NCBI GenBank assembly: GCA_011523515.1
Contig: WTGO01000074.1
Coordinates: 62,001-126,000, forward strand
Direction: 5' to 3'
Length of the DNA stretch: 64,000 bases
DNA from: Chloroflexota bacterium
Lineage (GTDB): Bacteria > Chloroflexota > Anaerolineae > Aggregatilineales > Phototrophicaceae
Below, piece by piece: positions 2,706 through 28,061 of this stretch. A program made the position numbers and the translations under genes. Numbering within the stretch: position 1 is the stretch's first letter; each line of letters opens with the position of its first letter. The notes beneath the pieces were generated by a model that was not told the origin of the DNA, did not search any database, and saw only the letters and a list, made by a program, of their open reading frames with translations.

Positions 2706-3959
2706 ATGCCAGGTGAAACACTCTTGAATCAGCGTTACGAGCTTGTCGCCCAACAAGGCTCGGGCGGCATGTCTGTCATCTATCGCGCGCTTGATCGGAT
2801 GCTGGGCCGAATGGTGGCCATCAAGATACTGCGCCCCAATCTGACCAAGGACCCGGCTTTCCTGGAGAAATTTCAGCAGGAAGCGCGCAGCGTCGCCATG
2901 ATGTCGCATCCGAATATCGTCACCGTACACGATGTCGGCAACGACGGCGCCACCTACTACATTGTGATGGAGATGATCGAAGGCGATGACCTCAAGAAGT
3001 TGATCAAAACCCGTGGCGCCCTGCCCTTTGACAAAGCCCTCGAGCTCGCGATACAGATTTGCGCCGGCTTGGGCTTCGCGCATCGCTCGCAGCTAGTTCA
3101 CGCCGATGTCAAACCGCAGAATATCCTGATTAATCGCGAAGGCATCGTCAAGATCACGGACTTCGGCATCGCGCAGGCTTATACCGACACCATGCCGCAA
3201 ACGCGCAGTGAAGTCGTTTGGGGCAGCCCTCACTATTTTGCGCCCGAACAAGCGCGCGGCGAAAAGCCCTCCCCGGCTTCAGATGTCTATTCGATCGGCG
3301 TCGTTCTGTTTGAGATGTTTACCGGGCGCTTGCCCTTTGTCGGCGCCACACAGCGAGACTTGGCATTGGCGCATATTCAAGCGGAAATCCCGCGAGCAAT
3401 CGAGCTGAATCCAGATTTGCCGATCGAGTTGAGCAACGTCATTTACAAAGTAATGAGCAAACGCCCCAACGACCGTTACAAACATGCCGACCAGCTGGGG
3501 CACATCCTGCAGCAGGTCCGCGACCGCCGCCGGGGTTCGGCGCAACAGACAGCCGCCGGTCGCATGGCGCCGCCTACAGTAACCGGGCAGCAGCCGGCGC
3601 CAAGAAGCCCACAGCCCCTTCCGCAAGTTGCGCCCAAGGTCAATCCGCCGGCTATACCGGCGCCACCAGTGCCGCGCCGAGCCGCGCTCTCTACTCCGCA
3701 GCCTTATCCCGCGGTCAGCAGCGGACACATGCCGGAAGGCGGCGTCCCAGCGGCGCCCAACCCGCCCGGCCCGCTCTTCAATCCGGACGGCACGATCAAC
3801 GTCGAGGCCACCGGTGGCTACTCCGGCCCCTTCCTTCCACAGCGGCAAGCCAAAGGCGAAGGCGCCGATATCGTTACCATCTTGCTGGTGATACTGGCTT
3901 TCCTGGCCGTAGCCGGACTCGTGCCGCTATACCTCTTGGGCGTATTTCCGCTGATTTAG
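2706..3959 (+). CDS. Membrane-anchored Ser/Thr protein kinase (PknB-like, no PASTA repeats)
   Basis: A eukaryotic-like kinase domain fills residues 11 to about 270: a glycine loop QGSGGMSVIY, VAIK (K40), HADVKPQN (residues 132-139), DFG (152-154) and APEQARGE. The catalytic loop reads HAD where most relatives have HRD, so it is a non-RD kinase, but D134, K136 and N139 are intact. A Pro/Ala-rich linker follows (about 280-390), then one hydrophobic helix (about 394-414) that places the kinase in the cytoplasm on a C-terminal anchor. No external sensor domain follows the helix, unlike PASTA kinases. The gene ends three bases from the convergent mutL stop. Confidence 0.93.
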   Translation: MPGETLLNQRYELVAQQGSGGMSVIYRALDRMLGRMVAIKILRPNLTKDPAFLEKFQQEARSVAMMSHPNIVTVHDVGNDGATYYIVMEMIEGDDLKKLIKTRGALPFDKALELAIQICAGLGFAHRSQLVHADVKPQNILINREGIVKITDFGIAQAYTDTMPQTRSEVVWGSPHYFAPEQARGEKPSPASDVYSIGVVLFEMFTGRLPFVGATQRDLALAHIQAEIPRAIELNPDLPIELSNVIYKVMSKRPNDRYKHADQLGHILQQVRDRRRGSAQQTAAGRMAPPTVTGQQPAPRSPQPLPQVAPKVNPPAIPAPPVPRRAALSTPQPYPAVSSGHMPEGGVPAAPNPPGPLFNPDGTINVEATGGYSGPFLPQRQAKGEGADIVTILLVILAFLAVAGLVPLYLLGVFPLI

Positions 3960-26963: not shown

Positions 26964-26979
26964 GAATGCAGGGTATTGC

Positions 26980-27073
26980 AGACATCCCTACGCCAGCATT
27001 ACCTGGATCAGGTGTATGGGTCGGCACGTTATCCATGCCCTCTCAGCCCTCTAGCGCGAGCTCCCCAAGTCAC
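26980..27073 (-). promoter_or_regulatory. TPP riboswitch aptamer (THI element)
   Basis: The minus strand reads GGGGAGC, then GGGCTGAGAGGG, then ACCTGATCCAGGTAATGCTGGCGTAGGGA, which are the conserved P1/P2, pyrimidine-sensing CTGAGA and pyrophosphate-sensing segments of the TPP aptamer. With the downstream terminator it should switch off thiBPQ when TPP is plentiful. The ends of P1 are approximate. Confidence 0.97.
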
Positions 27074-27094
27074 GAAATATGGTATTCACTGAGG

Positions 27095-27123
27095 ATTATA
27101 CCGCGCCAAGTCATATGCTGCAA
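27095..27123 (-). promoter_or_regulatory. Predicted promoter of the thiBPQ operon
   Basis: On the minus strand TTGCAG, a 17-base spacer and a perfect TATAAT lie just upstream of the TPP aptamer, predicting a transcript start near 27088. The MITE-like element ends only 14 bases upstream of the -35. Confidence 0.7.
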
Positions 27124-27130
27124 TGTTCTT

Positions 27131-27279
27131 GCCTTAGGGGAGTGGTGAATATCGCGGATATTTTCCTCTTGGCGAACACTGCGCAGGTTTTTTCACCACC
27201 GAGGACACCGAGGGCACAGAGGTTTCTTGTTTGATTGGCGAAGTTTTTGTATCGGCTGAATTCACCACTCCCGCCTTAG
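27131..27279. mobile_element. MITE-like element (135 bp) with 13-bp inverted repeats and 7-bp target duplication
   Basis: GCCTTAG at 27131-27137 is repeated exactly at 27273-27279. Inside these copies lie perfect terminal inverted repeats GGGAGTGGTGAAT (27138-27150) and ATTCACCACTCCC (27260-27272). The 135 bases between the duplications have no meaningful reading frame. The interior contains TTCACCACCGAGGACACCGAGGG, which partly repeats the terminal sequence. This is the structure left by a transposition event of a non-autonomous element. The right duplication contains the stop codon of the neighbouring CoA-transferase gene. No matching transposase is in the window. Confidence 0.82.
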
Positions 27280-28061
27280 CAATGCATAAAGTCCGCCAGG
27301 AATTGTGCAAATCGCCCGGCATTGCATGCTTCTGTATATTGCAGAATCGCCTCGCCATCCAGCTGATACAGAGGATAACAGCTTGTGGGGGCGGCGCCTG
27401 AAGGGGCTTCGGCTATGAAGTCGCAGCCGGGATAGGGGATGATCACGCCGTCGAGCGTGCGCTCCAGCTTGTCGACGACTCGCTCGACCGTCGCGATTAC
27501 CACATCAGCGACGTAGACCAATTCCATGTCGATGCCCAAATTGTTATTGAGTAGCACGTTGCCTTCACGGTCGCCGGCCAATCCGTGAATCACAGCCACA
27601 TCGCAGGGTATGGCCGGGAAAGCCAGCAATTCATCGCCAGAATAGGGGTCAATAACCGTCTTGACATCGGGCCGCAGCACCGGCAGATCGGTGCCCAGCC
27701 AGGCGCGGGACGGCATAAAGCCGCTGCCGGATATCTGCGCGCGGATGCCCATCACCAGGCTGGCTTCCGTCTCTTCCAGCACCTGAATGCGCTGCTGCTG
27801 AGCATACTGGGTAAACATCGGCGCGAATCCAAAGGCCTCGAGGCCGACGTAGGCCGACCGCACCGTCTGAACGCAATCGCCGCCGATGAGCAGGTCAGAC
27901 TCCAAACCACCGGTGAAGCTAAGCAAGGTTAGGTCTCGCGGCGGCTGCCGGCGGCGCAAGAGCGCCTTCACATAGCTAAGCGGCCGCCGGTAAAGCGTCA
28001 TTCCGCCCAGCGCCAAGGTGTCGCTGTCTTTGACGATCTCCGCCGCTTCTGCCAGCGACAC
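27276..28061 (-). CDS. CoA-transferase family protein, alpha subunit (IpdA/GctA-like)
   Basis: The 261-residue protein matches the alpha subunit of class I CoA-transferases, close to glutaconate CoA-transferase subunit A and IpdA: DTLALGGMTLYRRPLSYVKAL, RDLTLLSFTGG, GFMPSRAWLGTDL, DPYSGDELLAFPAIPCDVAVIHG. It starts at GTG 28061; the in-frame sequence extends further upstream without a standard ATG. IpdAB-type pairs open a steroid-derived ring-CoA intermediate, while GctAB-type pairs move CoA between acids. The likely beta partner is about 3.6 kb away on the same strand (31634-32458). The stop codon lies inside the MITE target duplication. Confidence 0.82.
   Translation of the reverse strand: MSLAEAAEIVKDSDTLALGGMTLYRRPLSYVKALLRRRQPPRDLTLLSFTGGLESDLLIGGDCVQTVRSAYVGLEAFGFAPMFTQYAQQQRIQVLEETEASLVMGIRAQISGSGFMPSRAWLGTDLPVLRPDVKTVIDPYSGDELLAFPAIPCDVAVIHGLAGDREGNVLLNNNLGIDMELVYVADVVIATVERVVDKLERTLDGVIIPYPGCDFIAEAPSGAAPTSCYPLYQLDGEAILQYTEACNAGRFAQFLADFMHC

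Follow-up and report, generated by a model that had tools for sequence, protein, structure and literature searches.

A 135-bp MITE with IS1-type ends beside the thi genes of a Chloroflexota bacterium

Inside the 64,000-nucleotide stretch of DNA analysed here (the window), a 135-bp non-coding element lies between a CoA-transferase gene and the thi genes. It is a recently inserted, real mini-transposon of a Chloroflexota genus. From sequence comparisons we consider it very likely to be a MITE of an insertion sequence (IS) of the IS1 family, moved in trans by an IS1-type transposase. The MITE family itself is new within the IS1 family, while the kind of element is already known.

The element, its copies and its empty sites

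A first-pass annotation of the window had described a 7-bp direct repeat, GCCTTAG, around perfect 13-bp inverted ends, and both are exact in the sequence. The element is made up as follows.

27138..27272, plus strand: the 135-bp MITE, recognised from genus-wide relatives, five other copies in its own genome, target duplications and empty sites
27131..27137, no strand: left target-site duplication GCCTTAG, read from the window sequence; one similar 7-mer stands at congener empty sites
27138..27150, plus strand: left 13-bp terminal inverted repeat GGGAGTGGTGAAT, a perfect match to the right end
27260..27272, minus strand: right 13-bp terminal inverted repeat ATTCACCACTCCC, a perfect match to the left end
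27273..27279, no strand: right target-site duplication GCCTTAG, holding the TAA stop of the CoA-transferase gene
27138..27161, plus strand: stretch common to the MITE and the left (InsA) end of the genome's IS1-family IS, 24 bp with one mismatch; this IS end stands at many contig ends
27188..27221, plus strand: core TTTTTTCACCACCGAGGACACCGAGGGCACAGAG, tandem CACMGAG units, the same repeat that forms the inverted ends of GxxExxY gene units
27142-27149, 27192-27199 and 27261-27268: the 8-mer TTCACCAC or its complement

The 13-bp ends are prolonged to 23 bp at 83%. The exact 13-mer has no further occurrence within the window; with up to two mismatches it is found at 110 sites in the whole genome, against 21 for a reversed control. 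The element had been described as lacking a coding frame, and indeed no ORF of at least 100 aa overlaps its interior. It is short, non-coding and bounded by terminal inverted repeats, as bacterial MITEs are. As a separate observation, the 8-mer TTCACCAC is found twice, in the right IS1-type end and where the core starts; the left end has the complement.

The host draft genome comprises 4.15 Mb in 144 contigs, with the window inside contig C28. A search for copies with different flanks, proposed earlier as a check on transposition, returned at least five further copies in this genome, 89-96% identical to the element. On contigs C68, C39 and C141 there is a second family, about 134 bp long, whose ends are the same; with similar sequence next to its core, it is probably related to, though diverged from, the 135-bp family. 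Matches to the element occur in 33 of the 34 genomes of the genus, with few beyond it; paired exact ends, searched across named genomes, gave matches in Chloroflexota MAG contigs only. The element has no match among phages, and its matches to plasmids are confined to the core.

Multiple sites with target duplications, a further mark of bacterial MITEs, are found throughout the genus. Duplications, almost all of 7-9 bp, flank 30 of the 58 end-to-end short elements, compared with a mean of 0.67 and a maximum of 4 in 500 shuffles; a few of the 58 are the same element delimited in different, overlapping ways, an effect that makes the fraction with duplications smaller, not larger. Two of six close copies (C81 and C123) are without a target duplication. 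Conservation across 47 copies is 0.90 and 0.92 in the ends, 0.84 in the core and 0.73 and 0.69 in the arms. On two contigs of the same genome, C62 and C142 (L002, L003), a MITE copy and an IS1-type end are no more than about 10 bp apart, which may reflect nested or successive insertions at one site.

The orthologous site is empty in four congeners. When the window flanks are joined without the insert, they align continuously with G003 (84%), G018 (82%), G017 (82%) and G015 (76%), which supplies the empty-site form that had been asked of the transposition reading. Each of these sites has at most one GCCTTAG-like 7-mer (GCGCTAG-, GCGCTAT- or GCGCTAA-like), whereas the window has two plus the element. 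Other sequence occupies the site in some congeners; the insert in G009 has the ends GGGCAATCGCTTCAAA...TTTGATGCGATTGCCC, unlike the 135-bp element. Sequences with GGGCAATCGC-type ends also occur in congeners (L190, L192, L104, L106 and L113), in some cases with a CACAGAG core nearby, and one of them sits at the thi intergenic site of G009.

A partner IS of the IS1 family

Many contigs of the host genome stop about 53 bp inside an IS: after the same 13-bp end comes GGGAGTGGTGAATATTGCGGATATGAGTAGACTGGGTTTATGATTAAATGTCCGCATTGCC, translated in one frame as MIKCPHC. Through these contig ends with their InsA-like start, the MITE has ends in common with an autonomous transposon of its own genome. Full-length elements with the MITE ends, 794-802 bp long, are found in congeners G029, G023, G006 and G011, a few of their ends carrying one or two substitutions; these are the transposase-bearing elements for which the first-pass annotation had recommended a search. 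They contain an InsA-like frame and then an InsB'-like frame. In three of four copies (L123, L124 and L127) an A6-7C run marks the place where the two meet; no such run was found in L126. Judging from this arrangement, we infer that the frames are probably joined by -1 frameshifting.

The NCBIfam model NF033558, with a cut-off of 100 bits, gives 93 bits for frame A of L127 (profile 1-111) and 36.6 bits for frame B (profile 110-199), each frame alone falling below the cut-off; over both frames together, the match relates the transposase to that of IS1. For the query, the Pfam DDE_Tnp_IS1 score falls short of its cut-off; PF03400 passes its own at several loci in congeners. In the host genome, the Pfam Zn-ribbon InsA model has no match, probably because the IS has collapsed at contig ends. 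No intact IS copy is present in the host's draft assembly, which contains only ends and one apparently truncated right part (C118), and most of the assembled congener copies have interrupted frames. These points weigh against the IS1 reading, as do the frame and DDE_Tnp_IS1 scores below cut-off and the two close copies that have no duplication.

At its left end, the IS is common with the MITE over those 24 bp; at the right end only the terminal repeat is in common. Target duplications in the IS1 family are about 8-10 bp long. Those of the MITEs are 7-9 bp, and the full-length congener IS copies show no clear duplication. Taking ends and transposase matches together, the IS1-family IS with the MITE's ends is almost certainly its partner and what moved the element. 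By the same matches, the family that the first-pass annotation had left unnamed is IS1, and its reading of a non-autonomous transposon is borne out by the other copies, the partner with the same ends and the empty sites.

We envisage the following course of events. A resident IS would supply in trans an IS1-type transposase with an InsA-like zinc-finger/HTH part and an InsB'-like DDE part, and this enzyme would recognise the 13-bp ends common to IS and MITE. The 135-bp non-coding element would then have inserted, with 7-9 bp of target duplicated, at the CoA-transferase stop codon, between that gene and the TPP-riboswitch-controlled thi genes. The middle of the MITE would have been taken from a dispersed CACAGAG-type repeat.

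The core repeat and GxxExxY genes

The core is present once in the window, and elsewhere in the genome it also occurs without IS1-type ends. All five PF13366 (TIGR04256, GxxExxY) genes of the genome have arrays on both sides, in inverted orientation. These loci are L204-L208, on contigs C117, C57, C48, C104 and C71, and further GxxExxY loci are L211-L269 and L330-L337. Over 64 GxxExxY loci, a two-unit motif lies left of the gene 36 times on the plus strand and never on the minus strand, and right of the gene 31 times on the minus strand and twice on the plus strand; 540 control windows gave 4 matches. Scoring of inverted repeats without a fixed motif exceeded the threshold at 31 of 34 loci from the genus, 20 of 29 from other Chloroflexota and 3 of 8 from plasmids, while direct-repeat scoring at the same loci gave 0, 6 and 2, respectively.

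The repeat unit differs by lineage (CACAGAG, CACGAAG, CACGAAA, CACAGAT, CACGGAT and CGCGAAG), and solo repeats agree with the local flank variant in three of four sampled genome sets, each sample being 400 kb with GxxExxY genes excluded. G194, with CACAGAG flanks, has 14 solo CACAGAG pairs and 0 for eight other variants tested. G094 and G170, with CACGAAG and CACAGAT flanks, together have 20 solo CACGAAG, 12 CACAGAT, 9 CACGAAT and 0 CACAGAG. The G000 sample has CACAGAG pairs only (n=3), and that of G172 has no arrays of any variant. A reversed-motif control over the solo samples matched once in total.

Two side observations concern these repeats. At an ABC-transporter junction (contig C71 in the host), congeners differ: some have a GxxExxY unit, some have inverted arrays with no gene between them, and some have neither (L302, L305 and L309 compared with L314, L318, L319, L322, L324 and L328). 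A degraded core-bearing element also lies just upstream of an apparent tRNA gene (L099 on G026:C71; L103 on G001:C102).

In REP/RAYT (TnpAREP) REPtrons, a gene stands between inverted short repeats and solo repeats are dispersed, with genome-specific variants (PMC6006769). The core and GxxExxY genes resemble these in layout, an analogy that applies to the core only: the flanking repeats are inverted, and matching solo copies occur in G000 (3 pairs only), G194 and G094+G170, with none in the G172 sample. They differ in that the gene between the repeats belongs to TIGR04256/PF13366, whose annotation is PD-(D/E)XK (PDDEXK_3), and not to the HUH (TnpAREP) transposases, and in that the repeat takes the form of tandem CACNRAN units instead of a GTAG-tagged hairpin. 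No PDB relatives of GxxExxY were found (best E 0.18, unrelated proteins); literature searches returned no relevant description of the core and variant repeat sequences and nothing related to the GxxExxY family accessions. The inverted flanks and the matching solo repeats suggest a putative REP-RAYT-like system around GxxExxY proteins. More tentatively, and at a little under an even chance, we propose a novel dispersal system in which GxxExxY (PDDEXK_3) proteins may act on CACNRAN arrays inverted around their own genes and spread solo copies, one of which would have been captured by IS1 ends to give the MITE.

Such a system might instead have dispersed the whole element, with the IS1-like ends as passengers. 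In favour of this, the core corresponds to the inverted ends of GxxExxY units, no other internal part of the MITE is as well conserved, and solo cores exist without IS1 ends. However, the target duplications abut the IS1-type ends rather than the core, which largely refutes dispersal by the core, and the ends are better conserved than the core. A search by ends alone gave six elements, of which three carry the exact two-unit core, two carry it with a changed unit and one (L116) has a different interior. This last, at 3376-3511, adds a third short element that shares the 13-bp ends and has GGACCAAG on both sides; its interior is unlike the core and resembles another dispersed sequence. On these grounds, among them that L116 joins the same ends to a different core, dispersal by the core seems to us very unlikely. 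Movement by an IS1-type transposase is the reading we keep, and the simplest account of the interiors is that local dispersed repeats were captured between IS1 ends.

The thi locus and related elements

The neighbours of the insertion are the following.

27276..28061, minus strand: CoA-transferase (PF01144), with its TAA stop at 27276-27278 and the insertion immediately 3' of the stop
27095..27123, minus strand: likely thi promoter TTGCAG-17-TATAAT, intact, read by eye and from congener alignments
26968..27077, minus strand: TPP riboswitch, matched by RF00059 at 63.4 bits (gathering score 54.3); it separates the insertion from the solute-binding-protein (thiB-like) gene

Read along the minus strand, the CoA-transferase gene is followed by the insertion, TTGCAG-17-TATAAT, the TPP riboswitch, a terminator-like stem and then the solute-binding-protein gene. 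The promoter match is absent from the list of the promoter scanner; its TATAAT hexamer is kept in several congeners in the alignments. As first annotated, the insertion edge lies 14 bp upstream of the -35 hexamer and the right duplication holds the CoA-transferase stop. Neither neighbour is visibly damaged by the insertion.

The first-pass annotation had also supposed that the insertion could add transcription signals or a structured 3' end to its neighbours. This was not upheld: no terminator or promoter is called inside the element, for which reason we rejected either role, the stop codon is kept, and the TPP riboswitch with its terminator lies downstream of the insertion. A host regulatory element, either an RNA structure or a terminator, kept by selection next to the thi operon would fit the proximity of the TPP riboswitch and the folding of both strands, which is better than that of shuffles (z -3.6 and -4.9). 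Yet the fold scores come largely from the inverted ends, no Rfam match reaches the gathering score inside the element, copies lie at unrelated loci and orthologous thi loci of congeners are without it, so we hold selection as a regulatory element to be highly improbable. An effect of the element on thi expression is possible but unsupported. Chance repeats or an assembly artefact, as a 144-contig draft with the repeat at many contig ends might suggest, have a negligible probability and can be counted as refuted, given that the copy in the window lies inside a contig of 153 kb and not at its end, that the family recurs in independently assembled congeners, and that there are empty sites and target duplications.

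As a MITE of an IS1-family IS, the element has relatives in kind. MITEAba12 of Acinetobacter is 111-114 bp long, has ends in common with the coresident ISAba12 and 9-bp duplications, and has been proposed to be mobilised in trans (PMC6382973). Ours is likewise a bacterial MITE of similar size with ends common to an IS, but its parent would be IS1-family by transposase match, its duplications are 7-9 bp, its host is a member of the Chloroflexota and its interior holds a GxxExxY-linked repeat. The SM3A and SMN1 MITEs of Sulfolobus islandicus have ISC1058 and ISC1733 as partners (PMC3718332); they too are short non-autonomous elements, with a transposase acting in trans as we propose here. An A-rich slip site has been discussed for the IS1 and IS3 families (PMC4066793). 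Like IS1-family members, the partner IS has two consecutive frames, InsA-like zinc-finger/HTH and DDE InsB'-like, a length of about 0.8 kb and, in three of four copies, a candidate A-rich slip site; its own ends are GGGAGTGGTGAAT.

With its copies, duplications, empty sites and partner IS, the MITE is a clean case in a largely uncultured Chloroflexota genus. The core matters more than the MITE. Because arrays are placed in inverted orientation around GxxExxY genes and solo variants match their genomes, the dispersed CACAGAG/CACGAAG/CACAGAT-type arrays can be assigned a candidate partner in the nuclease-like GxxExxY proteins, whose gene family is poorly understood, and this yields a testable hypothesis.
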